This document shows positions 3,225 through 16,333 of a stretch of DNA of 21,600 nucleotides, in pieces (the first letter of the stretch is position 1; each line of letters begins with the position of its first letter). The notes under the pieces were generated by a model. The model ran no database searches. It saw only the letters and a program-made list of their open reading frames with translations, and was not told the DNA's origin. The position numbers and the translations under genes were made by a program. This DNA is from a virus. The stretch is taken from positions 1-21,600 of IMG/VR virus record IMGVR_UViG_3300017741_000068. One strand, 5' to 3'.

Positions 3225-3350
3225 CTAGTCAGTAAATCCCTCACCCTTAACAAAGTGATGCAACCTATGTGTAAAGATAGTCCACACTAAACTAACTAAT
3301 GTGTCTGTCTTGTACACTCCTGCTGGACAAGTGTGTATCCACTCTTTCAT
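3225..3350 (-). CDS. 41-aa ORF between gp33 and gp59, unknown function
   Basis: The frame reads MKEWIHTCPAGVYKTD and ends HRLHHFVKGEGFTD. The ATG overlaps the gp33 stop (ATGA at 3350-3347) and its TAG abuts the gp59 start, so it fills the gap between two well-recognised genes exactly. Coding capacity is supported by this tight packing rather than by any motif. It is a small, slightly basic and aromatic protein. No Shine-Dalgarno is visible; translation would depend on coupling to gp33. Confidence 0.65.
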   Translation of the reverse strand: MKEWIHTCPAGVYKTDTLVSLVWTIFTHRLHHFVKGEGFTD

Positions 3351-3559
3351 ATTGGTAACTTTGCTTGATTGGGTAGATAGTTCAAATCTCTTGCATTTGC
3401 TTCTATCTTATCTTTTAGACTTTTTGATATGAGTCTTGTAACTGACTCTGGTTCTACTTGTTTTGTTTTACAGTATTCTAGAACAGCGTCCATATGTGAT
3501 AGGTTTTTGTCTTGGGCCATCTTTTCAATCTCAAGTGAGAACGTCTTTGTGTTTTGCAT
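3347..3559 (-). CDS. 33: gp33-like late-transcription coactivator
   Basis: 70 aa from the chosen ATG (3559). T4 gp33 bridges RNA polymerase (beta flap) to the sliding clamp gp45 and works with the late sigma gp55. The sequence FSLEIEKMAQDKNLSHMDAV, then LEYCKTKQVEP, KSLKDKIEANARDLNYL, follows the gp33 pattern (IEKMVEEFGMSYLEATTAFLEEN, KIQSEAIDENLL). It is shorter than T4 gp33 (112 aa) and ends NQAKLPI rather than the T4 tail. The open frame extends to an ATG at 3607, but GGAG lies 5 nt before 3559 and the extra 16 residues cross a hairpin (3579-3602), so the internal start is preferred. Its leader resembles that of phoH. Confidence 0.8.
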   Translation of the reverse strand: MQNTKTFSLEIEKMAQDKNLSHMDAVLEYCKTKQVEPESVTRLISKSLKDKIEANARDLNYLPNQAKLPI

Positions 3560-3578
3560 AATAACTCCATTTATAAGA

Positions 3579-3602
3579 TGTGGGGTTAACCATGACCCCA
3601 CA
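3579..3602 (-). promoter_or_regulatory. Hairpin in the leader of gene 33
   Basis: A 7-bp perfect stem TGTGGGG/CCCCACA with a 10-nt loop ends 19 nt before the gene 33 ATG. The bases after it (CTTATAAATGGAGTTATT) resemble those after the phoH hairpin (ATAAAATGGGATTATC). It could protect or terminate RNA or mark a processing site between the tmRNA and gene 33. No U-run follows it, so it is not a standard intrinsic terminator for the minus strand. Confidence 0.55.
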
Positions 3603-3839
3603 CGCACTTATTAAGTAGTGACCCTTAATGATCTTACCGATTTTTTTCAACCGAACCTATTCACATAGGCATCATTAATTTGTGTCGGTAGGACTTGGGT
3701 ACACCTACAACTGAGAAACCAAGATACCATTCTTGTTATATTCCCAGAACCTAGTTCCAATCGGTAGATTGATGTGACACAGCGTGTTTCCACTACCATG
3801 CCTGAGTACCACCTCTAACTAGTCAAGTTCACAACTCTT
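3603..3839 (-). other. Unexplained structured non-coding stretch after the tmRNA
   Basis: About 230 nt without an open frame lie between the tmRNA coding piece and the gene 33 leader. On the minus strand it holds several short perfect hairpins: CAATC-TACC-GATTG (3771-3758), CCTAT-GTGA-ATAGG with a GNRA-like loop (3669-3656), CAAGA/TCTTG, and GTTGTAGG/CCTACCGAC (3711-3683) whose loop carries ACCCAAGT. That loop is part of an 11-nt element (3700-3690) complementary to the tmRNA T-arm region. I find no tRNA, RNase P or group I intron signatures. It may be a tail of the tmRNA precursor or a separate small RNA. Confidence 0.5.
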
Positions 3840-3943
3840 GGTGAGAAGTTCTTCCTTGCACGACACTATTTTCGCCCGTCAGCGAAACTCTGAAACTGTG
3901 ATGATGTTTCTGTTTCCAAGTACACCATCAAAACTCAGTACAA

Positions 3944-3988
3944 TTAGGCAGCTAGTGCGAAATCTACAGGTGCAAAATCATCATTTGC
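3944..3988 (-). other. tmRNA tag reading frame (ANDDFAPVDFALAA)
   Basis: From the resume codon GCA (3988) the frame gives Ala-Asn-Asp-Asp-Phe-Ala-Pro-Val-Asp-Phe-Ala-Leu-Ala-Ala and stops at TAA (3946-3944). The A-rich stretch TTAAAAAAACTAAAC just upstream is the usual setting of a resume codon. The ALAA end is the ClpXP-type degron, and the AND..FA..FA.AA pattern resembles the Caulobacter tag rather than cyanobacterial tags. This is the strongest single evidence that the RNA is a working tmRNA. Confidence 0.93.
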
Positions 3989-4070
3989 GTTTAGTTTTTT
4001 TAACCGATACGAGGTAAGCCGATAGTTCTCCACTTTTCTATTTAACGTCAGTCGATCCTATTTCACCCCC

Positions 4071-4120
4071 ATTATAAACACTCTCAAGCAGTGATTCAAT
4101 ATCTCATCTAAGAGTGTTTA
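4071..4120 (-). other. Intervening segment of the permuted tmRNA, closed by a perfect stem
   Basis: This 50-nt linker joins the CCA end of the acceptor piece to the 5' end of the coding piece. Its ends form a perfect stem, ATAAACACTCT with AGAGTGTTTAT (4121-4111 with 4084-4074, 11 bp), so the acceptor helix and this stem could stack in the precursor. In permuted tmRNAs this segment is removed by tRNA-type processing (RNase P on the coding side, 3' trimming on the other). The phage presumably relies on host enzymes for that. Confidence 0.85.
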
Positions 4121-4183
4121 TGGTGGAGGTGTTGGGTATTGCACCCAAGTCCTGTCCATCTTTCAATCTGTTTCAACAAACTA

Positions 4184-4219
4184 TACTCTATTTATACCAT
4201 GATTCTTTTCGTTTGTCAA
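4184..4219 (-). promoter_or_regulatory. Promoter of the tmRNA: sigma-70 type with overlapping late-type -10
   Basis: TTGACA (4219-4214), a 17-bp spacer and TATAAA (4196-4191) form a near-consensus sigma-70 promoter. The -10 continues to TATAAATA (4196-4189), the T4-type late promoter that is read by gp55/gp33 without a -35. Start is expected near 4184. The TTGACA shares bases with the stop codon of the Fe-S carrier gene. Two modes of transcription are therefore possible; which is used is inference. Confidence 0.75.
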
Positions 4220-4527
4220 GTCTTAATTGAGAAACTTGTTCCACACCCACATGAAGAATGTGCGTTAGGGTTCTTAACTGTTAAGTAAGAACCACCAAAT
4301 TCTTTTATGTAGTCCACAGTGCAACCAAGTAGAAACATCTCGGCCGTAGTATCTAACACTAACACATCATCTATGAGTGTTCCTTTGTCAGTAGTGTCTG
4401 TGGTTTCCCATTTGTATTCGAAACCAGCACAACCACCACCCTTGACAGACAATCTTGCATAGGTATCCTCTGACTTGGATACCATGTCTGTTAGATATTC
4501 TCTTGCATTTTCTGTTAGTGTTATCAT
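4216..4527 (-). CDS. A-type Fe-S cluster carrier (HesB/IscA/ErpA family)
   Basis: 103 aa, full length for the family. These proteins hold a [2Fe-2S] or [4Fe-4S] cluster and deliver it to apo-enzymes in the cytoplasm. The three cluster cysteines are present: C33 in VKGGGCAGFEYKW, and C93 and C95 in NAHSSCGCGTSFSI. The window encodes a likely client, the QueG-like double-cluster protein. The start overlaps the stop of the upstream gene (ATGA at 4527-4524) with AAGGG just before it. HesB-like genes are known in ocean myoviruses of cyanobacteria and SAR11. Its stop codon overlaps the -35 of the tmRNA promoter, and no terminator lies between them. Confidence 0.95.
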   Translation of the reverse strand: MITLTENAREYLTDMVSKSEDTYARLSVKGGGCAGFEYKWETTDTTDKGTLIDDVLVLDTTAEMFLLGCTVDYIKEFGGSYLTVKNPNAHSSCGCGTSFSIKT

Positions 4528-4787
4528 GACCCTTTATTTATAATGTTACCATCTAAAATCTCTTGCACTAAATCACCTTTGACACAAAATGCCTTCTCTG
4601 GTTTGAGTCTACCATCAAAGTTCTTAAATGCAGCCCACATATATTTGTCTGGGTTTGCATTAAGTCTATCTAGACATTGTTGTTGTGTTTCATTCTCTTG
4701 GTGGAATATAAACAAATCAGTACCAAACTCTGGTGTTGTAGTCGCCATAGTCACGATTATAAAGTATTTACTAAGTGTTACTCCCAT
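4524..4787 (-). CDS. Small conserved-looking phage protein, unknown function
   Basis: 87 aa from the ATG at 4787, which has GGGGAG 4 nt upstream and overlaps the end of the exonuclease by 17 nt. An internal ATG (4748, MATTTPEFGTDLFIFHQ) would give 74 aa but has no ribosome site. Visible features are an aromatic-rich centre (DLFIFHQENETQQQCLDRL, then KYMWAAFKNFDG) and a tail KAFCVKGDLVQEIL. I recognise no domain. It is packed between the exonuclease and the Fe-S carrier with overlaps on both sides. Confidence 0.75.
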   Translation of the reverse strand: MGVTLSKYFIIVTMATTTPEFGTDLFIFHQENETQQQCLDRLNANPDKYMWAAFKNFDGRLKPEKAFCVKGDLVQEILDGNIINKGS

Positions 4788-5439
4788 TGAACTCCCCTAT
4801 AACTTCTTCTAACATCGGAAGATAATTATGTTTAGTTTTAACAAACTCCTGTACTGAACCATCCTCAGTAACAACTAGAATAACAATCTGTTCAATTGGT
4901 TTTCCAGTTCGTTCTTCAAACATCTCTGCGTATGCAGACGCTTGTATATAATAGTTTTCATTCCACTCATCACTTCTCTCTTTAGAAGAAGTCTTGAAAT
5001 CAATGATGGAAAGTTCCCCATTGTATTCTGCAATACAATCTACTCGTCCAGCGACTTTGTACTTATCTGAATACAACCCACACTCTTGAGCATGAATATT
5101 GTCAACATTGTCCAAAGTTTCTTTTGCGAGTTGTTTGAAGAGACAGTAGGGGAGAAATTTCTTTTTGTGTTTTTCTTCGTCAAAGTCATTGTTTAAATAG
5201 TCCTCACACATATGATGAACAGCAGTTCCACGATTTGCGGCTGTTCTTGCAACATAGTTTGCAACATCATCACCAACTCGTTTACGCCATTCAAATAATC
5301 CTTTTTTATTCCTTACAGATAAAACTGTAGTAATAGACGGATACAGTTCACCCTCTGGAGTTTTATAGAATCTTTTCTTATCTATGGTTTGAGTTTTTAG
5401 ATCTTCAAGTTCAATCGGTACATGACAAAATGTTTTCAT
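4771..5439 (-). CDS. PD-(D/E)XK exonuclease (RecB/MGME1-like)
   Basis: 222 aa. The core motifs of this nuclease fold appear in order: RGTAVHHMCEDYL (residues 70-82, motif with H75/H76 and E79), AGRVDCIAEYNGELSIIDFKT (130-150) with D134, D147 and K149 as the D...DxK metal site, and YYIQASAYAEMF (163-174) with the usual Q. Homologous phage proteins are annotated as exonucleases and act on ssDNA or DNA ends in replication or host-DNA recycling. It starts 1 nt after the endolysin stop and overlaps the next gene. No ATPase domain is attached, so it is a stand-alone nuclease. Confidence 0.85.
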   Translation of the reverse strand: MKTFCHVPIELEDLKTQTIDKKRFYKTPEGELYPSITTVLSVRNKKGLFEWRKRVGDDVANYVARTAANRGTAVHHMCEDYLNNDFDEEKHKKKFLPYCLFKQLAKETLDNVDNIHAQECGLYSDKYKVAGRVDCIAEYNGELSIIDFKTSSKERSDEWNENYYIQASAYAEMFEERTGKPIEQIVILVVTEDGSVQEFVKTKHNYLPMLEEVIGEFNGSNT

Positions 5440-7142: not shown

Positions 7143-7739
7143 TTACATCACATTATAGTTTATTATACACCGATTACCATTAGTCGGTTGTTCGGCTGTA
7201 TGCCAGTACCAACCATCAAATAAGACTACTCTACCTTTTTTTGGTGTCACTTTCTTTTTGATAATTCGTTTGTCGTGTTCTGGTACTGACTTCTGGTTAC
7301 TGTAGTGGTTCTCATATATTATCGTATCTCCGTCTGCATCTATAACATAGTACAGAACTACCAAGTGTGGTGTTATACGATTATCTACATGAAGTTCATC
7401 TAGTATGTGTCTATCTTTTAGATTTAGCGGGAACTGTAGAAAGGTTCGACCTTGAGAGAATACACTAAACATATTATCAGTTCTCTTACACGCTTCCTCT
7501 ATCATAGGTTTTATGAACTCATGGAAGTTACTATTCTGTCCATCTCTATTTACAATACTATGACTCACCGCTGGTCTACCTGTTACAGTAGTTTTTTCTC
7601 CTAGTAGTGGTGGTGCGACCTCTGGTATAAAATACCAACTAAACCCACTATCACGACCTACTAGAATATTTTCAATTTCATCTTGATATTTCTTATCAAT
7701 GATATCATCGAATACCCAAATTTTATTTTGATAGTCCAT
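7143..7739 (-). CDS. 2-oxoglutarate/Fe(II)-dependent oxygenase (no. 1)
   Basis: 198 aa. The double-stranded beta-helix signature is visible: iron ligands in DELHVDNRITPHLVVLYYV (H and D of the HxD), the distal His in GWYWHTAEQPTNGNRCIINYNV, and the Arg 11 residues later that would bind the 2OG carboxylate. Between them, RGKVVLFDGWYWH-type sequence (GRVVLFDGW) is the usual strand before the distal His. Such enzymes hydroxylate proteins, nucleic acids or small molecules; the substrate cannot be told from sequence. It is the last of four oxygenases in the 10425-7143 cluster and overlaps the upstream coiled-coil gene by 17 nt. Confidence 0.88.
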   Translation of the reverse strand: MDYQNKIWVFDDIIDKKYQDEIENILVGRDSGFSWYFIPEVAPPLLGEKTTVTGRPAVSHSIVNRDGQNSNFHEFIKPMIEEACKRTDNMFSVFSQGRTFLQFPLNLKDRHILDELHVDNRITPHLVVLYYVIDADGDTIIYENHYSNQKSVPEHDKRIIKKKVTPKKGRVVLFDGWYWHTAEQPTNGNRCIINYNVM

Positions 7740-7908
7740 CTATCCTTTTCCTTAATCCATAGTTTTCCTCTGCAAGTTCTTTGATACGCATTTGTAAACC
7801 ATGAATATGTTTTTGCATCTCATACATTTCTCTTCTGATTATGGAATCAGTCGTTGTTATTCCTTCTCCAAGATGACTCGTAAAGTCGAGCTCTAATTGT
7901 TTCTCCAT
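7723..7908 (-). CDS. Small coiled-coil protein, unknown function
   Basis: 61 aa from the ATG at 7908, chosen because AAAGGAG lies 6 nt upstream. The frame stays open to 7977, but that extension crosses a consensus promoter (7970-7942) and is probably not translated. Residues 23-60 form a long amphipathic helix with heptad leucines (MYEMQKHIHGLQMRIKEL, then ENYGLRKRIDGL). It resembles the coiled-coil protein at 2438-2629 in size and shape. It has its own promoter inside the oxygenase cluster. Confidence 0.75.
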   Translation of the reverse strand: MEKQLELDFTSHLGEGITTTDSIIRREMYEMQKHIHGLQMRIKELAEENYGLRKRIDGLSK

Positions 7909-7941
7909 TTCTTTCTCCTTTCTAAATTTCCACAATATCCA

Positions 7942-7970
7942 ATTATAATATCTTTCTGGTTCTTTGTCAA
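7942..7970 (-). promoter_or_regulatory. Sigma-70-type promoter for the 61-aa coiled-coil gene
   Basis: TTGACA (7970-7965), 17 bp, TATAAT (7947-7942): both hexamers are exact consensus. Start is expected near 7935, with a leader of about 27 nt to the AAAGGAG-preceded ATG at 7908. It lies just after the stop of the upstream oxygenase (7974). Confidence 0.85.
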
Positions 7971-7973
7971 GAC

Positions 7974-8678
7974 TCATCTTATGTGAATCTGATCTTTATC
8001 TTCATAGTTACCAAATGTTCCTGTGACAAAATAATTTGTTCCCAGAATTATTCTAGGTGAATCATCTTCATTTGGTAATGCTGTGTGTTCACACCAGCCT
8101 GGGAAGATAACCATATCACCAGTTTTTACTTGCAAGTTAATTGTTCTTGAGTTGAAGATATTCTGTTGCAGAACTTTATAGGATAAATTATACCCCTCTT
8201 GTATTCTACTGATAGGCATCCTTATCTGCAAATCACCACTATTCGCTTGTACATAGTATACACAACTGAATACACAGTTTGGGTGTATGTGTGGGTGGTG
8301 TGCATCACCTTTGTGATTTATTGCTGTCCAACTTTGTGTTAGGTAAAATTGATTTTGTATTTGTAAATGTTTTGTTACATACTCATTGAACACAGTAAGT
8401 ATATGTGTCTTTACTCTGAGTAGTCTTTCATTATCTAATATGTCTGCACTTTTAGATATCGCATTACCTTGTTTAGATACAGCTTGTCTGAAGTCACCAT
8501 CAACCACTGCACTCATCTCGTCATCATTTAGTAAAAGGTCTGTCGATGTTTTATAAACAGGTAATGCATGAAAAGGTATCAACTCTGCTGAAACCTCTGT
8601 ACTTACGTTACGTTCTAACTCTTTTCCGATCTCTCTATGTAATTGTCGTTGTACTTCTTCTGGTAAACTCTCTGTCAT
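7974..8678 (-). CDS. 2-oxoglutarate/Fe(II)-dependent oxygenase (no. 2, TIGR02466-like)
   Basis: 234 aa. The N-terminal third is charged and helical (EVQRQLHREIGKELERN). The catalytic part has AHHPHIHPNCVFSCVYYVQA, where the HxH cluster supplies iron ligands, and DMVIFPGWCEHTALPNEDDSPRIILGTNYF with the distal His and a following Arg. This layout matches the TIGR02466 / PF13759 class of putative oxygenases common in marine T4-like phages. Its substrate is unknown. Its start overlaps the stop of the upstream oxygenase (ATGA), so the two are probably made together. Confidence 0.85.
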   Translation of the reverse strand: MTESLPEEVQRQLHREIGKELERNVSTEVSAELIPFHALPVYKTSTDLLLNDDEMSAVVDGDFRQAVSKQGNAISKSADILDNERLLRVKTHILTVFNEYVTKHLQIQNQFYLTQSWTAINHKGDAHHPHIHPNCVFSCVYYVQANSGDLQIRMPISRIQEGYNLSYKVLQQNIFNSRTINLQVKTGDMVIFPGWCEHTALPNEDDSPRIILGTNYFVTGTFGNYEDKDQIHIR

Positions 8679-9241
8679 GCTGGTACTCCTAACACTTCTC
8701 TTCCATCAAATTTATTATTATACCTACCATTTTTTCTGTTGTAGTGGAGAAAAACCTGTGCATGATAGTTTCCTTCAAATGGTTCTCTCCAATGTTCTAA
8801 TTCACAACCCTTGTATATAACCATGTCACCTCTTTCTGTTTCTATAGATATCTCATTACCATCTCTGTCTTTGAACCATATAGGCCATGCGTAATGTGAG
8901 TCATAACCAATACACAATGTCAAAGATATCTCACAACTTTCTCTGTCTATATGTCTTTTTAGTTCAGACCCTTTCTTATATAGTCTGTAGTAAGAATACT
9001 GTGGAACTAACTGCTCACCTGTTATCTCTTGTAGTTGGTCAAGTTTTCCCATCAGTAGTGTATCAAATATCAAATCTCCGTACATACTAAAATCACCCAT
9101 ACTCTGTGGGTCACTAAAAGTTCCATGCCTATTATCTCTAGTTACTGATAATCTTTTATGTGCAAGTAAGATATATCCATATAATAATGTAGAGAGATCT
9201 TCACTAATAAAGTTTTCTACCTTTATCCAATCCTTATTCAT
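8675..9241 (-). CDS. 2-oxoglutarate/Fe(II)-dependent oxygenase (no. 3, prolyl-hydroxylase-like)
   Basis: 188 aa from the ATG at 9241; a TTG at 9250 would add three residues. The iron site is LKRHIDRESCEISLTLCIGY (HxD) with the distal His in GCELEHWREPFEGNYH. The residue 9-11 places after the distal His, where an Arg or Lys usually binds 2OG, falls in YHAQVFLHY, so the 2OG anchor is not standard; the nearby Arg two after the His may substitute. The strand ERGDMVIYKG precedes the distal His as expected. No strong ribosome site is visible. The gene starts 15 nt after the upstream stop. Confidence 0.8.
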   Translation of the reverse strand: MNKDWIKVENFISEDLSTLLYGYILLAHKRLSVTRDNRHGTFSDPQSMGDFSMYGDLIFDTLLMGKLDQLQEITGEQLVPQYSYYRLYKKGSELKRHIDRESCEISLTLCIGYDSHYAWPIWFKDRDGNEISIETERGDMVIYKGCELEHWREPFEGNYHAQVFLHYNRKNGRYNNKFDGREVLGVPA

Positions 9242-9256
9242 TGTAATCAAATTCTT

Positions 9257-9799
9257 TCATGCGGCCCAGAACCAATATGGGATTTGTCTTCTTGTCCACT
9301 TTGCAAATCTTTTTTTCTCAATTATATAGTAGGTTCTATAAGCATCTATTGAGTCTGGTTTTTTACAATGGTCAGGCATTGCTTGGGGCATCGTGGTCAA
9401 ACCACCCTCTTTAATTTTAGTTGGTGGTGATACAAGTAAATCTCTGAGTAAAGAGTCAGTAGAATGAACTTTACCATATCTAAACGTATACTCATCACAT
9501 AGTTTTTCAAATAGATTATATAACCAAATATAATTTGCAACACTCTCTCTCGCCCATATTGCACTTGGGTGATTGATATGTGATGCTTTGTAGATAGTGT
9601 TTTCTATATTCTCATTTGGGTGTTTCCATCTTCGTATTCTACGTCCTATCTTAGTTCTACCTTCATACTCATCACCATCTAATATTCTGTGTGCAGTAGA
9701 CATAAGTTGTGCATATTCGATTATCATCTTGACAACGTGTTTATCACAGTGCATCTTTGCAGATACATCTGGGTCTTCATGTAAATAAAATATATTCAT
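9257..9799 (-). CDS. Conserved phage protein, unknown function
   Basis: 180 aa. Conserved-looking blocks are HEDPDVSAKMHCDKHVVKMI, then HINHPSAIWARESVANYIWL, LCDEYTFRYGKVH, TMPQAMPDHCKKPDSIDAYR and a C-terminal KWTRRQIPYWF. The His/Cys/Asp-rich start and the repeated Trp and Tyr suggest a real enzyme or nucleic-acid binding fold. I recall similar proteins in cyanophages and other marine viruses under hypothetical labels; I know no function. It overlaps the upstream oxygenase stop by one base and sits inside the oxygenase cluster, so a linked job is possible. Confidence 0.75.
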   Translation of the reverse strand: MNIFYLHEDPDVSAKMHCDKHVVKMIIEYAQLMSTAHRILDGDEYEGRTKIGRRIRRWKHPNENIENTIYKASHINHPSAIWARESVANYIWLYNLFEKLCDEYTFRYGKVHSTDSLLRDLLVSPPTKIKEGGLTTMPQAMPDHCKKPDSIDAYRTYYIIEKKRFAKWTRRQIPYWFWAA

Positions 9800-10425
9800 C
9801 AGTTATAATTTATACCCCACGCTAAGTTTATTCTTTGTTGATTAGATTTATTCTCTTCTACTTCATGTGGCATCCAACCAGGCCATAGAACTAACATACC
9901 ATCTTGTGGTACTATCACAGAGTTCCTAACGAAAGGCGCTTTCTGATTACAAGTCATGAGTGTATTCGCTGGATTTAGAAATACTAGATTTCCTGTTCCC
10001 TCTGATTGAACATAGTAAATCGCAGCCCATATATCTTCAACATGAGTATGCAATATATTCTTAGAACCTATATCATTTATATTAGTCCAAATACCAAAAT
10101 CTCTATTTGTGCATGATGTCACTTGTGATTTAAAAACTGGATCTGTTTCAAAGTAAACTTTGTTTGCTTGGTCAGATAATTCTTTTACTGCATCATACAA
10201 CCAATCCATTTTATATTTTGCAGTAGATCTCCAACAACCTTTGTTTCCACCACCCATGACTTCTATATTGTTTTCTTTTGCATGGAATATTTGTTTTTTC
10301 AAATCTTCTCTTTGTTCAATTGTTCCCACACTTGATTTTATAAAAACATCTGCACGACATAGTGGTAACATATCAATGTTGTTATCTTGTTTCATATTCT
10401 GTTCTATCTCTGGTAAGTCGTTCAT
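9799..10425 (-). CDS. 2-oxoglutarate/Fe(II)-dependent oxygenase (no. 4, TIGR02466-like)
   Basis: 208 aa from the ATG at 10425, which overlaps the upstream stop as TAATG and has GGGAG 5 nt before it; an ATG at 10437 is less likely. The catalytic region is NILHTHVEDIWAAIYYVQSE (iron ligands) and VLWPGWMPHEVEENKSNQQR, with the distal His and an Arg 11 residues on, followed by INLAWGINYN. This is the standard ending of TIGR02466-type proteins. The N-terminal half contains CWRSTAKYKMDWLYDAVKEL, a substrate-side helix region. Substrate unknown. Confidence 0.85.
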   Translation of the reverse strand: MNDLPEIEQNMKQDNNIDMLPLCRADVFIKSSVGTIEQREDLKKQIFHAKENNIEVMGGGNKGCWRSTAKYKMDWLYDAVKELSDQANKVYFETDPVFKSQVTSCTNRDFGIWTNINDIGSKNILHTHVEDIWAAIYYVQSEGTGNLVFLNPANTLMTCNQKAPFVRNSVIVPQDGMLVLWPGWMPHEVEENKSNQQRINLAWGINYN

Positions 10426-10853
10426 TACTTCTCCCATCTATAAAATATATGTGACTCTATTCGAGTCGTTCTTGTTTTTGTTTTCGCCCACGCTGGTCTT
10501 ACATAAGTTGCATGGTAGTGTGTTGCACCCTCTGTAACATCAAGTGCTATTCTACCAGATAAAACTATTCTTGCATAATCTTGTGCTTTAAACCATTCTT
10601 TACTATCTCTTCTTGGTTCATCGCTTTTACCATCGCAGAACCAGCTGAACTGGCACTTATGACGAACAGGAACATCACTACCTTTATACTTTGGGCCTTG
10701 TTTTACAACTCCACATACTGTGTTAGGATAACGACTATCTGCAACACGATTCATAACTACTTGTGCAGTTGCAACTTGACCTATCATAGATTGATTTTTT
10801 GCTTCATGGTAGGTGTTAAGTGCAAGACACATTAGTGCAGTTTCAATTAACAT
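10425..10853 (-). CDS. SleB-type cell wall hydrolase
   Basis: 142 aa. It matches the SleB/CwlJ hydrolase domain (PF07486), a peptidoglycan lytic transglycosylase or amidase-type fold. Visible motifs are ALNTYHEAKNQS with the probable catalytic Glu (E17), QVATAQVVMNRVADSRYPNT, CQFSWFCDGK, and DVTEGATHYHATYVRPAW then SHIFYRW at the C-terminus. The short hydrophobic start (MLIETALMCLAL) is not a clear signal peptide. The phage thus has two wall-degrading enzymes in this window (see 5441-5962). GAGGAG lies 7 nt before the ATG, and the gene overlaps the metallopeptidase by 11 nt. Confidence 0.9.
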   Translation of the reverse strand: MLIETALMCLALNTYHEAKNQSMIGQVATAQVVMNRVADSRYPNTVCGVVKQGPKYKGSDVPVRHKCQFSWFCDGKSDEPRRDSKEWFKAQDYARIVLSGRIALDVTEGATHYHATYVRPAWAKTKTRTTRIESHIFYRWEK

Positions 10854-11229
10854 TATTGTACTCCTCTAATAGTTTCTTTTCTAATTTAAATGCCTCGATT
10901 TCGTAAGGTCTATCTTCGTATGCAACCTTATCACTACTTATTGCGAATATGTCACCACCAAACTCTTTCTTGATATGTTGCTTGATATGAACAAACTCAT
11001 GAAAGATTGTAGTAAGTAAATCTTGTTCTGATAATTCTTTGTTGACTCTGATGATGTATGACCTATCGTCTGCATCGTAACAATCTCCGTCTGCGAGTAA
11101 CCCCTTTACAGACTCAATTTCAATCTCATCAATCTTATGTCTAGGTATCAAATATGACTTTGCAAACCAAAGAGCATCCTCAATGGTTCGTTGTCTTTTT
11201 TTGTTGGTATTTCTAAATTCTATAAACAT
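10843..11229 (-). CDS. Small HEXXH zinc metallopeptidase-like protein
   Basis: 128 aa. TTIFHEFVHIKQH (74-85) carries the HEFVH zinc and catalytic motif (H77, E78, H81), and about 30 residues later RPYEIEAF provides a Glu (E110 or E112) as likely third ligand, a gluzincin arrangement seen in SprT/ImmA-like domains. The region before it (DDRSYIIRVNKEL) fits the preceding beta strand. It could cut a host or phage protein; the target is unknown. It has its own consensus promoter and an AGAGAGAGAT leader before the ATG, and overlaps the SleB gene downstream. Confidence 0.8.
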   Translation of the reverse strand: MFIEFRNTNKKRQRTIEDALWFAKSYLIPRHKIDEIEIESVKGLLADGDCYDADDRSYIIRVNKELSEQDLLTTIFHEFVHIKQHIKKEFGGDIFAISSDKVAYEDRPYEIEAFKLEKKLLEEYNNVN

Positions 11230-11250
11230 ATCTCTCTCTATTATGTTTAT

Positions 11251-11279
11251 ATTATATACTGATTCGTTTTAATTGTCAA
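11251..11279 (-). promoter_or_regulatory. Sigma-70-type promoter for the metallopeptidase-SleB unit
   Basis: TTGACA (11279-11274), 17 bp, TATAAT (11256-11251), both exact consensus. The -35 lies within the last codons (VDN) of the upstream 63-aa gene. The leader contains AGAGAGAGAT just before the ATG at 11229. Confidence 0.85.
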
Positions 11280-11460
11280 CTACTTTATCCATACGAGTGA
11301 TATTTTTTATAGGTAATTTATCTTCACCAAATATCTCTTGTAGGATTTTAAATTCTTTGATTGTATTTTCTGCAGCCTGTGCTTCACTGTCACCCTCTGC
11401 AATCAGAAAGGTGTCCTCACCATCCACATTCTTATAAAATAATTTTGTTTTATGTTTCAT
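11269..11460 (-). CDS. Small protein, unknown function
   Basis: 63 aa, MKHKTKLFYKNVDGEDTFLI then a helix EAQAAENTIKEFKILQEIFG and a short end. The start looks like a two-strand sheet followed by a helix, a fold common in small phage modulators, but I recognise no family. AGAGAGAGAAT precedes the ATG. The leader holds a 14-bp hairpin whose loop could pair with this GA tract (11472-11528). It has no clear promoter of its own and probably follows the 11535-11906 gene. Confidence 0.6.
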   Translation of the reverse strand: MKHKTKLFYKNVDGEDTFLIAEGDSEAQAAENTIKEFKILQEIFGEDKLPIKNITRMDKVVDN

Positions 11461-11471
11461 ATTCTCTCTCT

Positions 11472-11528
11472 ACGACCTATATGACTTTTGAGTTTTGCGA
11501 GTTGAGAGAGGTACGTCATATAGGTCGT
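11472..11528 (-). promoter_or_regulatory. Leader hairpin with a perfect 14-bp stem next to the ribosome site
   Basis: ACGACCTATATGAC (11528-11515) pairs perfectly with GTCATATAGGTCGT (11485-11472) around a 29-nt loop. The loop carries CTCTCTC (11510-11504), complementary to the GAGAGAG (11470-11464) that immediately follows the stem and serves as the ribosome site of the 63-aa gene. Either the loop can compete for the ribosome site, or the hairpin simply positions it. The stem is too regular to be chance in a 74-nt gap. Confidence 0.7.
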
Positions 11529-11534
11529 GTTCCT

Positions 11535-11906
11535 TTAGGACAGGTATACAGGCCCTGTCCAATGTATTTCGTAATTACCATCTAACACATTACCTCTAGG
11601 TGCGTTAGTCGCTGGTTTGTTCCAACCAGCAGGTTTTAGGATATCTCCCTTTTTAAATTTTGGTGTGTCTTCTTTTACAACAAACCCCCAGCATGAACCA
11701 CCAGGCGTACCACCATTACCACACATAATTTTTACATACTTTGAACCAGACTTAACAACAAATCCATCGTTAAACTGACCTATCATTTTCTTTGCAACAT
11801 CTGAGTTGACATCACTACCATACCTTTTAACGTAATCTGCTTTTGCAGAATTAAGTAGGTTGTCAATTCCAACTTCTAATGTTGTCGCACTTTGTTCTAC
11901 TATCAT
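11535..11906 (-). CDS. Protein of unknown function with GxGG core
   Basis: 123 aa. The N-terminus is helical (VGIDNLLNSAKADYVKRYG, then DVAKKMIGQF). The centre is strand-rich: FVVKSGSKYVKIMCGNGGTP followed by GGSCWGFVVKEDTPKFKKGD and a Pro/Asn-rich part, ending EIHWTGPVYLS. I recognise no family. It has a consensus promoter and an AGAGAGAGAATTTATT leader. The last codons form a 7-bp hairpin (GGACAGG/CCTGTCC) with the stop codon immediately after it. Confidence 0.7.
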   Translation of the reverse strand: MIVEQSATTLEVGIDNLLNSAKADYVKRYGSDVNSDVAKKMIGQFNDGFVVKSGSKYVKIMCGNGGTPGGSCWGFVVKEDTPKFKKGDILKPAGWNKPATNAPRGNVLDGNYEIHWTGPVYLS

Positions 11907-11941
11907 AATAAATTCTCTCTCTTGTTATTAACTATACTACC

Positions 11942-11970
11942 AATATACACTGATTCGTTTCATTTGTCAA
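11942..11970 (-). promoter_or_regulatory. Sigma-70-type promoter for the 123-aa gene
   Basis: TTGACA (11970-11965), 17 bp, TATATT (11947-11942). The TTGACA overlaps the last codons of the upstream gene. CACTTGACAAA and the following ACGAATCAGT also occur in the metallopeptidase promoter, and GTATAGTTAATAA after the -10 recurs in the 17-18 kb promoters. Confidence 0.75.
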
Positions 11971-12313
11971 GTGTTATTTTTTCTATTTCATCTTCGCTCA
12001 TGACACCATTCTTTATAGTTATTTTTCTGTCACCAGATATCTCTGGTATCAAACTACACTCTTCTAAGTTTACATATATAGGTCTGCCTGTATCATTATA
12101 TACTTCTGTTTCTTCTAGTATATCTAAATCATAGTGAATTATTCTATCTTGTGGTTGTAAACAATAGATATCAACTCTACCCTCACTTATAAACGCAGAA
12201 CCAAACCTTTCTATACATATCGCTTTCTCACCATCACCATAATACATACTTACATTTGGAAAGTTCGATGGTTCATAATTTAAACTTCGTAGGTGGTCTA
12301 GTCTTTCTTTCAT
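11960..12313 (-). CDS. Small protein, unknown function
   Basis: 117 aa, acidic. Strand-rich stretches include NVSMYYGDGEKAICIERFG, RVDIYCLQPQDRIIHYDL and GRPIYVNLEECSLIP, ending with a helix DEIEKITLDK. No family recognised. It starts 4 nt after the stop of the upstream oxygenase, with only a weak ribosome site (AAGATT), so it probably depends on coupling. Confidence 0.65.
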   Translation of the reverse strand: MKERLDHLRSLNYEPSNFPNVSMYYGDGEKAICIERFGSAFISEGRVDIYCLQPQDRIIHYDLDILEETEVYNDTGRPIYVNLEECSLIPEISGDRKITIKNGVMSEDEIEKITLDK

Positions 12314-12317
12314 AATC

Positions 12318-12797
12318 TTATCTAAAATTTATATTTACGTTCACTCTTATGTTTGCATCTGATTGTATGACACTACAATGTTTCATACTACCATCAAATA
12401 TTACCATTTGATTTTCCACAGACTCAACTTTAGTTCCATCTTCAAATAATGTGTGACCATTATTTGAGTTTACAGAATACAAACCTACCATATGAGGCTC
12501 TGTACTATCAATGTGAAAGTTACCTTTATTGTTTTCATTTCTTTTTGGATAACAATTTACTTTTGCCCTCAACAGGTAATTAAACTTTAATCTACCAAGT
12601 AAAGGTATCAATATATTTTGGAAGTGTGAGCTATAGTGTTCAGTCTTTCCATCGTGTAATATGTGAGAGAAAAAGTAGTTGTTATCTCCATCTATAGTAT
12701 TTGGTAGATAATAATAATCGAAACTACTGCCGAACAAAAAATTCTTTATACTATCTTGTATACTTTTATCTTCTATGAAGTTCGGTATCACTTCCAT
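12318..12797 (-). CDS. 2-oxoglutarate/Fe(II)-dependent oxygenase (no. 5)
   Basis: 159 aa, the shortest of the set. The iron site is GNFHIDSTEPHMVGLYSVNS (HxD at H93/D95 approximately), and the distal part is NQMVIFDGSMKHCSVIQSDA with the His, followed by NIRVNVNINF with the 2OG-binding Arg. GHTLFEDGTKVE gives the strand between them, as in oxygenase 1 (DTIIYEN). It resembles oxygenase 1 (7143-7739) more than the TIGR02466 types. The ATG overlaps the upstream stop as TAATG. Confidence 0.82.
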   Translation of the reverse strand: MEVIPNFIEDKSIQDSIKNFLFGSSFDYYYLPNTIDGDNNYFFSHILHDGKTEHYSSHFQNILIPLLGRLKFNYLLRAKVNCYPKRNENNKGNFHIDSTEPHMVGLYSVNSNNGHTLFEDGTKVESVENQMVIFDGSMKHCSVIQSDANIRVNVNINFR

Positions 12798-13012
12798 TAT
12801 TTTATTTTAGACTCAAGGATATCAATTCTACTCGACAAGTTATTGATAGATTTATTCAAGTCATTATTTGTCGGTGGGTTATAGGTCTGTTGATATAACT
12901 GTTTTACTTTCTTGTCAAGTGTAACCATCATTCTAAATATGGTGTTGTTAGATATATCTTTTCCATCGTTGATACTCTCTACCAACTGTTCTATTTCTTT
13001 ATCGTCCATCAT
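12797..13012 (-). CDS. Small helical protein, unknown function
   Basis: 71 aa, mainly helical: MMDDKEIEQLVESINDGKD, a turn, MVTLDKKVKQLYQQ, an Asn/Pro linker and a C-terminal coiled coil (NKSINNLSSRIDILESKIK). It overlaps the genes on both sides (ATGATG with the upstream TGA; TAATG with the downstream ATG). No family recognised. Confidence 0.65.
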   Translation of the reverse strand: MMDDKEIEQLVESINDGKDISNNTIFRMMVTLDKKVKQLYQQTYNPPTNNDLNKSINNLSSRIDILESKIK

Positions 13013-13458
13013 TTCATTAACATAAATTCATCATTCCAGTTAAACGCTTCACACACCACGTTTGTAGATAACCCTTTGTATATCTGGTGCAACTTTTTGT
13101 CTTTAGTTTGTACTAAAAGTGCAGCTTCTGTTTCATGTAAACCCTCTAACAACTGAACAAACATCTGTTCTTTTTTCCATGCTGGTGTTTTACCATCTCC
13201 ACCTTTTATGAAATGAAATAGTTGTCTAGACTCAGTTGCAAGTGTGGTATGTTCAGTTCCTATCGGTGCTTCATTCTTTCTATAGGGAACATCACCCTCT
13301 GGAAGAACCCATGCGATATTTGGGTCAAAAGATGCTTTCAATACAGACCTAAGTGCTGGTGTATTGTTATCTCTAAGTATCTTGACTTTTTGGTCTTTTG
13401 TTTTTGCCTTGTGTACTCTGTCAAGGACTTCTGAAAATAATAATGTACTTCCTGCCAT
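13009..13458 (-). CDS. DUF6433-like conserved phage protein
   Basis: 149 aa from the ATG at 13458, which has GGAG 9 nt upstream; a TTG at 13473 would add five residues. The order FSEVLDRVHKAKTKDQKVKIL, TPALRSVLKASFDPNIAWVL, PEGDVPYRKNEAPIGTEHT, ESRQLFHFIKGGDGK, QLLEGLHETEAALL and VCEAFNWNDEFM is the pattern I associate with DUF6433, a family common in T4-like marine phages with no known function. It follows the RNase H gene by 1 nt, so a role in DNA metabolism is plausible but unproven. Confidence 0.8.
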   Translation of the reverse strand: MAGSTLLFSEVLDRVHKAKTKDQKVKILRDNNTPALRSVLKASFDPNIAWVLPEGDVPYRKNEAPIGTEHTTLATESRQLFHFIKGGDGKTPAWKKEQMFVQLLEGLHETEAALLVQTKDKKLHQIYKGLSTNVVCEAFNWNDEFMLMK

Positions 13459-13459
13459 T

Positions 13460-14302
13460 TTAAAATTCTCCAATGTTTTCAGTTAACTCTCTGAGTTTAT
13501 TTTTCATAAAATAATTTAGGAGTTTACTACGATCACCATGTGGTGCGTTATTGTATTCTAATCTTATTTGATTTTTGAGTTCCTCTGGTGTTTGTGTTAA
13601 ATCAATCAGAGTTAAGTTTCTTTGAAAGTTTCGTTTCACCTCATCATTCCAATCACTTCCACCACCTACCAGCCAAGATTGTATCTTCTTTCTAGTCAAT
13701 GGTCTTTGTCTTAATCCATCTGTAAAAGTATTGTCTGGTGATAGTACATTCGGTACACCATCACTAGTATCACCTTTTAAGATATGTTCTTTTAAATATA
13801 TAGTAGGGTCAAATCCATTGACTTGTTTTTTTGTGATAGGACTCCACTGTGTAACATTTGAATATTTCTGTAACTGAATAAAATCTTTATCTCCAGAGAT
13901 TATCATAATCTTTTCATCTCTGTTTTCTTCACACAAAGATCCTATGATGTCATCTGCTTCTGCACCGAACACCTCAAGATATTTGTAGGGAAAGTTTTCT
14001 TTGATTTCTTTTCTTATCTTGTTAAGAGTTGTAAAGATATCATCCCAATCTAGGTTTGACTCTTCTCGACCCTTTCTACGACTGGCTTTATACTCTGGGA
14101 AATAATCTCTTCTCCATGAGTGTTTTGAGTCCCAAGTAAGAACTACTTCACCATATTCGTTACGATGTTCTGTTCTGTACATACGAATAGAGTTGAGTAT
14201 CATGTGTCTTACCATACTCTCGTCTACAGTTTTACTTTTATTCATTTTCAAGTTCATCATCAGATTTGCAACTGCAATCTGGTTCATATCAATTATTATC
14301 AT
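13460..14302 (-). CDS. rnh: RNase H / 5'-3' exonuclease (T4 Rnh-like, FEN family)
   Basis: 280 aa (T4 enzyme about 305). It removes RNA primers from lagging-strand fragments. The metal-binding acidic residues appear in order: D5 (MIIIDMNQ), D58 (VVLTWDSKHSWRRDYFPEYK), E115/D117/D118 (VFGAEADDIIGSL), D138/D140 (MIISGDKDFIQL) and D178/D181 (KGDTSDGVPN). KASRRKGREE fits the bridge region. The last third (KLLNYFMKNKLREL) corresponds to the C-terminal domain that contacts gp32 in T4. The ATG overlaps the oxygenase stop (ATGA). Confidence 0.93.
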   Translation of the reverse strand: MIIIDMNQIAVANLMMNLKMNKSKTVDESMVRHMILNSIRMYRTEHRNEYGEVVLTWDSKHSWRRDYFPEYKASRRKGREESNLDWDDIFTTLNKIRKEIKENFPYKYLEVFGAEADDIIGSLCEENRDEKIMIISGDKDFIQLQKYSNVTQWSPITKKQVNGFDPTIYLKEHILKGDTSDGVPNVLSPDNTFTDGLRQRPLTRKKIQSWLVGGGSDWNDEVKRNFQRNLTLIDLTQTPEELKNQIRLEYNNAPHGDRSKLLNYFMKNKLRELTENIGEF

Positions 14303-14985
14303 TTTTTATTAGTATAGTAAGCGTTAAAGCTCATACTCCTCCGTTCTCCATCCACATCAAAAGGATAAACTGAATGTTTTAACCAAGATGGAAACATGAG
14401 TAGTTTACCAACCTCTGGTCTAAACGTCAAAGTGTCACTTCGTAAATCTTGTTTATCACCTTGCATGAACTGTATTGCACCACCAACAGGATAATGGTCT
14501 TCACTCTCTTTCTCAAAGAACTCGTCCATACCTTTTGGTAGTTTTAAATATATTACTGCTGATAGATGTCCACTGTGTTGATGCCATGGATTGTATTCAC
14601 CTTTGTATTGACTTACTATCCATGATTGACTTATGTTTATATTCTCTTCAGTTGGGTGTAAGTTACCTTGTGTTGGGTGATGTAATATCATGTTATCAAC
14701 GTATGCACAACTTTTGTTAATCATGTGTTTTAGATATCCGATACACGAACCTTTGAGAATATTCTTACAGTAATCTCCATCCTCTTTATTTACTATGGGT
14801 ATCTGAACTTCTTTGTGAACTTTACCTACAAGATGGTTAGACCAATCCCATTGTGCAGATTTTTTATCATCACTTAAAACTTCATCACCTATCTTATTTA
14901 CTAGGTCTATAAATCTTTTTGGTACTTCCATTTCCATTATAGTAGGACTAAATGGTGTGTGGAACTTCGCTTCACTCTTCTTCAT
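14299..14985 (-). CDS. 2-oxoglutarate/Fe(II)-dependent oxygenase (no. 6, TIGR02466-like)
   Basis: 228 aa from the ATG at 14985 with GGAGG 9 nt upstream. The C-terminal catalytic part is NPWHQHSGHLSAVIYLKLPK, where WHxH supplies iron ligands, and KLLMFPSWLKHSVYPFDVDG with the distal His, then ERRSMSFNAYY with the Arg for 2OG. It is the clearest TIGR02466 member. An insert of about 40 residues (EFFEKESEDHYPVGGAIQFM) lies between the two halves. It sits directly before RNase H and apart from the main oxygenase cluster. Confidence 0.87.
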   Translation of the reverse strand: MKKSEAKFHTPFSPTIMEMEVPKRFIDLVNKIGDEVLSDDKKSAQWDWSNHLVGKVHKEVQIPIVNKEDGDYCKNILKGSCIGYLKHMINKSCAYVDNMILHHPTQGNLHPTEENINISQSWIVSQYKGEYNPWHQHSGHLSAVIYLKLPKGMDEFFEKESEDHYPVGGAIQFMQGDKQDLRSDTLTFRPEVGKLLMFPSWLKHSVYPFDVDGERRSMSFNAYYTNKK

Positions 14986-15376
14986 CAAAATCTTCCTCCA
15001 AATATTCTACAAGTTCTGCAACTATGTCAGCTCTAAACTTTGTGTATATGTCACCCTCAGTTTTACTTTTCATTGGTAGTATTATATGGTTTACTAAATC
15101 AGATAGTGGGTGGTCATATCCTAACTCTCTAAACAAAAGTGCCTTTAGAGTTTCATTCATAAACCCAACGTGTCTATAAAAATTCTTTGATCCTATATCA
15201 ATATCATTTTCTTTCAAGATTTGTATTAATGATACCATCGCCTTTTCAGATATCCCATCAATTGCATCCATCTCTTCTTGAATAACTTGATCTCTAGTCT
15301 TACCATCTTTGGGTGCTCTTTTAGAATCCCAAGGCCCTATGATCACATTACTCCATTGTTTTTTATCATCTACCAT
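14972..15376 (-). CDS. Acidic protein, unknown function
   Basis: 134 aa. The start has WSNVIIGPWDSKRAPKDGKT; the middle is helical (VIQEEMDAIDGISEKAMVSL, then IGSKNFYRHVGFMNETLKAL), and the C-terminus is strongly acidic (LVEYLEEDFDEEE). Similar acidic proteins occur in cyanophages without assigned function, by my recollection. The acidic tail could imitate DNA or bind a polymerase, but nothing shows this. GAGG lies 6 nt before the ATG, and the gene abuts the QueG-like stop. Confidence 0.7.
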   Translation of the reverse strand: MVDDKKQWSNVIIGPWDSKRAPKDGKTRDQVIQEEMDAIDGISEKAMVSLIQILKENDIDIGSKNFYRHVGFMNETLKALLFRELGYDHPLSDLVNHIILPMKSKTEGDIYTKFRADIVAELVEYLEEDFDEEE

Positions 15377-16333
15377 TTAAACCTCTTTATACTTATCATA
15401 CTTAATTTTACCCTTTACACGCTCATAGGGAAACTTACCATTCCACTTTGAACATCGTGGTTGACTTGTACATTCTCTACAAAAGGGAACATTTACTGCT
15501 TCACCATCTTTTCTAATTACTTGACCATCAAAGGTATATCCATTTTTATCCCACGGCATATCATTACCAAAAGGTAAATGTTCATTTAAGTCATCTGCAT
15601 TATGAATTTTATCCAAAGTTTCTTGTGGTATTTCTGGATAAACATTCTTACCCCAAAAGTCTTTGATTGATGGAATGTCTTTGTTATCTGATTTTCCAAA
15701 TGCTATCATATTATCACAATCTGAAGAGTTCAACCAATTGACTTTTTCCTTATTACGAATTGCACCAACAGGACACTTAACCATACAATCATCACAACCT
15801 ATACAACGATTCCACATTTTAGTATTGTGTCTTCTAGATGTTGGTATATCTACAATTGTGTTGTTGATACCTATCGCAGTGAAGTGAACATCAAACCCAA
15901 ACCTATAATCGTATATTAAACTATTACGAGCTCTTACACCTAACCCTGCTCTTAATGCGGCCTCCTTGAAATTTGTATACACAGGAAACCAAGACTCATA
16001 TGGAGAGTTATTCATAATCTCACAAGCACTATTGTAATGAGTGTAATCCCAATTGTGACTACCATTTGATAATATCAGACAATTAGTCAAACCACCAAAA
16101 TGAATACTGTTAGTGAAATTAGAACCAAACGGATGTAATTGATATTTGATAGGCATAAGAGAAACTTCTAAGAGTTGTTCTTTTGTTATAACACCAACGT
16201 GCCAAACTTTTGTATCAAAAAAACTTTCTAAATATTTGAAAGATATCTCCTCTTCATTTTGACCAAGACTAGAGTAGTCATAGTTTGCAGTATGTCCACC
16301 AGCATATTCTACTACTACCTTACTGTTCTCCAC
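15377..16333 (-). CDS. QueG-like protein with two [4Fe-4S] sites (epoxyqueuosine reductase / reductive dehalogenase relative)
   Basis: 318 aa, GTG start (16333). QueG reduces epoxyqueuosine to queuosine in tRNA using cobalamin and two [4Fe-4S] clusters. Visible signatures are FKEAALRAGLGVRARNSLIY (123-141), which matches the QueG AARAGLGWIGKN core, and a ferredoxin motif NRCIGCDDCMVKCPVGAI with C177, C180, C183, C187. Four more cysteines (C206 in SSDCDNMIAFG; C285, C288, C294 in CRECTSQPRC) fit the second cluster, with C206 in the place of the lone Cys of QueG. The N-terminal half is divergent and the cobalamin-binding loops cannot be confirmed by eye. Reaction and substrate are open. Confidence 0.8.
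   Translation of the reverse strand: MENSKVVVEYAGGHTANYDYSSLGQNEEEISFKYLESFFDTKVWHVGVITKEQLLEVSLMPIKYQLHPFGSNFTNSIHFGGLTNCLILSNGSHNWDYTHYNSACEIMNNSPYESWFPVYTNFKEAALRAGLGVRARNSLIYDYRFGFDVHFTAIGINNTIVDIPTSRRHNTKMWNRCIGCDDCMVKCPVGAIRNKEKVNWLNSSDCDNMIAFGKSDNKDIPSIKDFWGKNVYPEIPQETLDKIHNADDLNEHLPFGNDMPWDKNGYTFDGQVIRKDGEAVNVPFCRECTSQPRCSKWNGKFPYERVKGKIKYDKYKEV

Follow-up and report, generated by a model that had tools for sequence, protein, structure and literature searches.

Two-piece tmRNAs are already known from T4-like marine phages. Buchholz et al. 2022 (PMC9004378) obtained 53 two-piece calls from 18,146 phage genomes, 50 of the 53 being aquatic, and proposed an alphaproteobacterial origin for the phage two-piece tmRNA; among their related contigs, ARAGORN detected a tmRNA in just 17 of 47. 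In phage Melnitz the two-piece tmRNA is followed by a glutamine riboswitch and then by the late-transcription coactivator (PMC9004378). SsrA is annotated in phages Mosig and Melnitz, and the copy of phage HTVC008M is unannotated. The copy analysed here lies in a 21.6-kb virus record (the window, meaning the whole stretch of DNA) and is not new in kind: where an earlier note on this DNA had mentioned one-piece tmRNAs alone as known in phages, two-piece ones of T4-like marine phages are published (PMC9004378) and annotated.

Rfam covariance models and ARAGORN identify positions 4223-3899 of the window, on the minus strand, as a circularly permuted (two-piece) tmRNA gene. The RF04321 tmRNA_permuted model matched over its full length at 4181-3944 with 110.7 bits (gathering score 47). 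RF01849 alpha_tmRNA, the search that the earlier note had proposed, likewise matched at full length, at 4223-3899 with 100.8 bits (gathering score 50). With E values of 3e-21 and 8e-27 from the two covariance models, this is not a chance match. ARAGORN reported a tmRNA* (permuted) at 3853-4213 with the tag ANDDFAPVDFALAA. The features of the locus are as follows.

4771..5439, minus strand: PD-(D/E)XK exonuclease, the upstream syntenic marker (phrog_298, 3.4e-71)
4216..4527, minus strand: HesB/IscA-like Fe-S protein (PF01521, 3.5e-10)
4121..4223, minus strand: acceptor (tRNA-like 3') piece; 5' end at 4223 by RF01849 and at 4213 by ARAGORN
4148-4132, minus strand: T-arm TTGGG-TGCAATA-CCCAA, in the acceptor piece
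4131-4125, minus strand: acceptor 3' strand CACCTCC, in the acceptor piece
4124-4121, minus strand: ACCA end of the acceptor piece
4120-4071, minus strand: intervening sequence (linker) of 50 nt with an 11-bp terminal stem and without an ORF
3899..4070, minus strand: coding piece with acceptor 5' strand, tag region and 3' end (to 3944 by RF04321, to 3899 by RF01849)
4070-4064, minus strand: acceptor 5' strand GGGGGTG, in the coding piece
3988-3944, minus strand: tag reading frame of 14 residues, ANDDFAPVDFALAA plus stop, resume codon GCA
3678..3887, minus strand: manA RNA (RF01745), candidate riboswitch (67 bits, E 2.4e-15, gathering score 55.2)
3347..3559, minus strand: gp33-like late-transcription coactivator, ATG at 3559 with GGAG upstream (PF16805 1e-17, phrog_254 6.5e-19)

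The gene has the alpha-type order, with the acceptor piece encoded first and the coding piece second, and the CCA end is present. GGGGGTG and CACCTCC form seven of seven acceptor pairs, the third being G-U, which is the alanine identity pair. The tag frame has the alanine resume codon and the hydrophobic end that an alpha-type permuted tmRNA requires, and folding predicts a linker stem of -13.8 kcal/mol (z -3.8). The two-piece architecture and anatomy read in the earlier note, from T-arm, ACCA and 50-nt linker with its 11-bp stem to the GGGGGTG strand, the 7-bp stem with G-U and the 14-residue tag, agree with the sequence and the models, which add the minus strand that the note had not given. 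Its interval of 3840-4219 needs a small correction, because it overruns the tmRNA: the alpha model stops at 3899, and a distinct element, a manA RNA, occupies 3888-3677.

Read along the minus strand, the locus consists of the PD-(D/E)XK exonuclease, an 87-aa protein, the IscA-like protein, the tmRNA, about 10 nt of spacer, the manA RNA, 118 nt and gp33, the first gene downstream of the two RNAs. This is the Melnitz-type arrangement, in which the genes for a PD-(D/E)XK nuclease and gp33 flank the tmRNA on the same strand. The stop codon of the IscA-like gene abuts the tmRNA 5' end, leaving no room for an intergenic promoter, and promoter and terminator scans around the tmRNA locus gave signals no higher than in shuffles. 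A strong hairpin (GUGUGGGG...CCCCACAU) lies at 3575-3605, between the manA RNA and the gp33 start and near the ribosome-binding site.

The phage is T4-like, as had been suggested, since it encodes T4-type gp32, gp33, gp59, PhoH and RNase H-like proteins. Its B12-dependent class II ribonucleotide reductase is nearest to those of Puniceispirillum phage HMO-2011 and roseophages, at 65% and below, and this proximity to SAR116 and roseobacter phages makes it possible that the phage infects an alphaproteobacterium other than SAR11. SmpB was not found among the window proteins checked, so the tmRNA would rely on host SmpB. Several 2OG-Fe(II) oxygenase-like genes are clustered at 7143-14988 of the window (7143, 7974, 9799 and 14299); the gene at 12318 shares phrog_274 with that at 7143, and the gene at 8675 matches a different PHROG. 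A 4Fe-4S domain protein at 15377-16333 appears epoxyqueuosine reductase-like by eye.

What sets the window copy apart is that the riboswitch position is taken by a manA RNA. These RNAs were described in 2010 from marine metagenomes and T4-like cyanophages, with no ligand known and without mention of tmRNA (PMC2864571). Our own model, built from six manA RNAs, scored 230.7 bits at 3888-3677, the window belonging to the training set. With this model, a manA RNA was found directly after the tmRNA in 18 contigs (the window and 17 others), spaced about 9-11 nt past the alpha-model end where that end is known. A glutamine riboswitch occupies the place directly after the tmRNA in two of 80 scanned loci, the window, with its manA RNA, not being one of them. 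Elsewhere, manA RNAs precede other phage genes, for example rubrerythrin. Besides the window copy, manA RNAs are located at 5575-5791 of contig L051 and 5974-6181 of contig L003.

Pattern and protein scans of IMG/VR, with the phage records added, located 178 permuted tmRNA loci. gp33 is also present in 160 of these, and the two are on the same strand in every case listed. More than half of the phage tmRNAs escaped strict regular expressions; relaxed patterns were therefore used, with ten ARAGORN calls remaining unparsed. To keep tmRNA patterns from biasing the count, we retained only loci found via gp33 or the exonuclease. ARAGORN called a permuted tmRNA in 74 of the 99 distinct exonuclease-gp33 intervals, and Rfam models found one in 20 of 20 examined among the 25 that ARAGORN missed, the weakest at 49.9 bits against a gathering score of 47. 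A permuted tmRNA is thus present in at least 94 of 99 intervals from related IMG/VR contigs, a fraction that holds for this phage group only, the loci having been selected for their kinship with the window. Far from being an oddity, a ribosome-rescue RNA belongs almost invariably to a large group of ocean phages, and a common detection tool misses many of its genes. A passive relic of a host ssrA, acquired for example at an integration site, is scarcely conceivable here. Bacterial ssrA genes are indeed common integration sites (PMC11915505) and Buchholz et al. raised exchange with a prophage (PMC9004378), but the gene is intact in at least 94 of 99 distinct loci, its stems covary, its tag is constrained and its synteny in T4-like phages is fixed, all of which speaks against a relic.

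Selection on the gene can be followed in the 71 unique tmRNA genes of the neighbour-protein set. All seven acceptor pairs are standard in 70 of 71, and the G-U third pair and discriminator A occur in every gene. T-stem pairs 1 and 2 each show four pair types with no mismatch. Tags end in LAA (65 genes) or MAA (6), and the last two tag codons always encode Ala with all four bases at the third position; ARAGORN filters favour paired stems, not this spread of pair types or third bases. Given its presence in at least 94 of 99 intervals, its covarying stems and tags whose amino acids are kept at (L/M)AA, the window tmRNA is very probably functional. Two points count against this. The RF01849 scores of phage tmRNAs (about 55-147 bits, versus 213-244 for nearly all SAR11 genes) indicate that some structural regions have drifted, and the 17 of 47 contigs in PMC9004378 are a low share, although one obtained with ARAGORN, which overlooked 20 of 20 genes recovered here with Rfam.

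We consider with considerable confidence that the two-piece tmRNA of the window is functional and occupies a locus conserved among marine T4-like phages; its probable use, as the earlier note proposed, is ribosome rescue in the course of infection. From known tmRNA biology, the following steps can be envisaged. The tmRNA would be co-transcribed as a single precursor in an operon running into gp33, from which RNase P and 3'-processing enzymes would release the acceptor and coding pieces. The linker would be removed in maturation, leaving the pieces held together by the 7-bp acceptor stem, whose G-U third pair should permit charging by alanyl-tRNA synthetase. Charged tmRNA, with host SmpB and EF-Tu, would then enter stalled ribosomes, add ANDDFAPVDFALAA and release them, while the LAA end would direct tagged products to host proteases. 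In this way the phage could maintain high rescue capacity during its takeover of the cell. Once the tmRNA 3' end is freed, the manA RNA would form the 5' leader of gp33 mRNA, where it probably tunes gp33 separately.

The source of the gene was addressed with trees of two modules (95 phage, 14 SAR11, 21 clade-relative, 15 other alphaproteobacterial and 4 mosaic sequences). In the tree of the tRNA-like and 5' part, a branch with SH-aLRT 98 separates 95 of 95 phages from SAR11 and other Alphaproteobacteria. This placement points to an old phage lineage and not to recent capture from the present host. Of the earlier note's proposal of capture from an alphaproteobacterial host, a recent event is thus not supported, and the SAR11 ssrA phylogeny it had suggested sets the phages apart from SAR11; an ancient alphaproteobacterial origin of the phage tmRNA is likely. 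The SAR11 label itself depends on a 16S V4 sequence that matched two genomes of 1.2-1.3 Mb at 99-100%, and is a strong lead. A search for the SAM-V riboswitch as a SAR11 marker found nothing, controls included. In the tree of the tag and 3' half (108 columns only), phages are scattered, the four mosaics lie among 13 phages (96%) and the window adjoins some cellular alphaproteobacterial sequences. Two earlier trees, with all phages on one side at high support, omitted the bacterial genes with 14-residue tags and are superseded by the module trees.

The mosaics are chromosomal ssrA genes of four alphaproteobacterial species (loci L299/L508, L510, L512 and L515), which came from BLAST, from a tag pattern and from scanning the order that includes one of the species. 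Their acceptor piece and 5' coding part are 92-97% identical to relatives bearing the tag ANDNDLALAA. Their tag, ANDNVASQD[FHY]ALAA, and 3' half share about 91% identity with phage tmRNAs and at most 70% with any other sampled bacterial ssrA. The resume codon follows the same division, being GCC in 21 of 21 cellular relatives, and GCA in four of four mosaics and in 114 of 143 phages. Since four similar cellular modules nest within diverse phage modules, the sequences favour movement of the tag and 3' half from phage to alphaproteobacterial ssrA; conceivably, the donor was instead an unsampled cellular lineage. The mosaic gene sits between thyA and an SspB-like gene (named by eye), SspB being a tag adaptor.

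Each of the four mosaic genomes has a single RF01849 match, so the phage-type module resides in the only ssrA gene of the chromosome, which counts for a functional tmRNA. It also bears on whether the phage RNA acts as an inhibitor or competitor, engaging the SmpB and ribosomes of the host so as to block or redirect its trans-translation. A precedent is a tmRNA consisting of little beyond the tRNA-like domain, as in mycobacteriophage DS6A, which strongly inhibits tmRNA (PMC4131195). We nevertheless judge it very unlikely for the window tmRNA, whose tag frame is complete and constrained in its amino acids; a decoy would have no use for a tag, and phage-type tag modules take the place of cellular ones in the four chromosomes.

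Movement in the opposite direction, from cell to phage, is suggested by SAR11 tags. In seven unique phage genes the tag is ANESYALAA or ANESYAMAA and the resume codon GCT; SAR11 genomes carry the tag ANESYALAA, and GCT is the resume codon in 29 of 31 SAR11 genes. One contig (L036) is nearly identical to HTVC008M (L004) through the coding piece, with different first tag codons and a tag start equal to the SAR11 ANESYA. These tags can be weighed against the idea of retagging, in which a phage tag unlike the host tag would change what happens to stalled products, shielding them from certain proteases or delivering them to certain ones. Phage tags are diverse (92 distinct in 145 genes) and mostly unlike SAR11 tags, as retagging would predict, but their protease-facing end is nearly always LAA or MAA, the same as in hosts, and the exact SAR11 tag in some phages points to host matching and not to escape, so that we consider retagging unlikely.

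In many relatives, the linker itself carries a gene. A microprotein of 34-48 aa, mostly 38-44, is encoded in 56 distinct linkers, between CCA and GGGG (carriers L135, L144, L170, L208, L127, L520-L599 and others). It has one hydrophobic stretch (consensus MKNPLVREVSKWMFKAYILWSICADITLLAGIIYLVFF) and is a candidate membrane protein. Differences at codon positions 3, 1 and 2 number 2946, 2150 and 1326, and the median dN/dS is 0.16 over 61 mutually non-independent pairs, a pattern of purifying selection. A scan of IMG/VR gave 308 relatives; among the best 80 of these, 68 have both tmRNA flanks by a strict pattern and 12 have one flank by pattern. The microprotein linkers start with AAAGGAGAUUA and finish with UAGUCUUUUUUUGAU, and 66 of 68 form a stem of 11-13 bp in which the first ribosome-binding site would be buried. 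Some of these linkers share a second, overlapping frame upstream that carries a DEEP-like motif. The window linker lacks an ORF, and its near relatives L208 and L127 have the microprotein ORF. Neither 50,697 phage records nor PHROGs contained a match to the microprotein. Other linker ORFs occur in L222 and L128 (linker 499 nt), L175, L190 and L002; they encode a 120-aa two-helix protein and a 34-aa peptide that has IPKYLSG in common with the Melnitz linker, and proteins of 73 and 68 aa.

tmRNA linkers holding a tRNA gene or a repeat have one report each (PMC11915505), and no protein gene in a tmRNA linker was reported in the literature searched. Taken together, we consider it reasonably likely that the two-piece tmRNA locus of marine T4-like phages serves for both exchange and nesting. 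Tag modules would have recombined in both directions between phages and cells, a phage tag and 3' half replacing those of the chromosomal ssrA in an alphaproteobacterial clade and the SAR11 tag ANESYALAA entering phage tmRNAs. Many of these phages, the window excepted, would have a membrane microprotein gene between the tmRNA pieces with the first ribosome-binding site buried in the joining stem, so that tmRNA maturation would compete with microprotein synthesis on a single transcript. Both the module crossing and the nested microprotein look new, as neither was found in the literature searched. If the module crossing is real, the degradation tag with which a bacterial lineage runs its quality control was altered by phages; if the nested microprotein is real, the discarded part of a tmRNA gene can house a protein gene, and a membrane protein is tied to RNA processing during infection.

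The closest described relative of the window locus is that of Methylophilales phage Melnitz (MZ577097), which also has a two-piece permuted tmRNA with PD-(D/E)XK upstream and gp33 and gp59 downstream. Its ssrA is 77% identical to that of the window across aligned pieces and encodes a similar tag, ANDNYVPVDYALAA. Unlike the window with its manA RNA, Melnitz has a glutamine riboswitch after the tmRNA (RF01739 at 6402-6450 of L002), and its linker is longer. Pelagibacter phages Mosig and HTVC008M share the permuted tmRNA between exonuclease and gp33, but their tags are short (GEDNFALAA and ANFNEYALAA, against 14 residues in the window) and no manA RNA directly follows the tmRNA, the manA RNA of Mosig preceding rubrerythrin. 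One-piece mycobacteriophage tmRNAs have the standard gene order. Those of Bxz1 and others are also phage-encoded, but are one-piece and belong to another phage lineage (PMC4131195). With the alpha_tmRNA (RF01849) of SAR11 and other Alphaproteobacteria, the window tmRNA has in common the permuted order and the G-U third acceptor pair, and phage and cellular forms alike have an alanine tag start and an LAA-type end. The phage forms are much more diverged, their linker is usually longer than the 6-12 nt of SAR11, and their resume codon is mostly GCA where SAR11 uses GCT.
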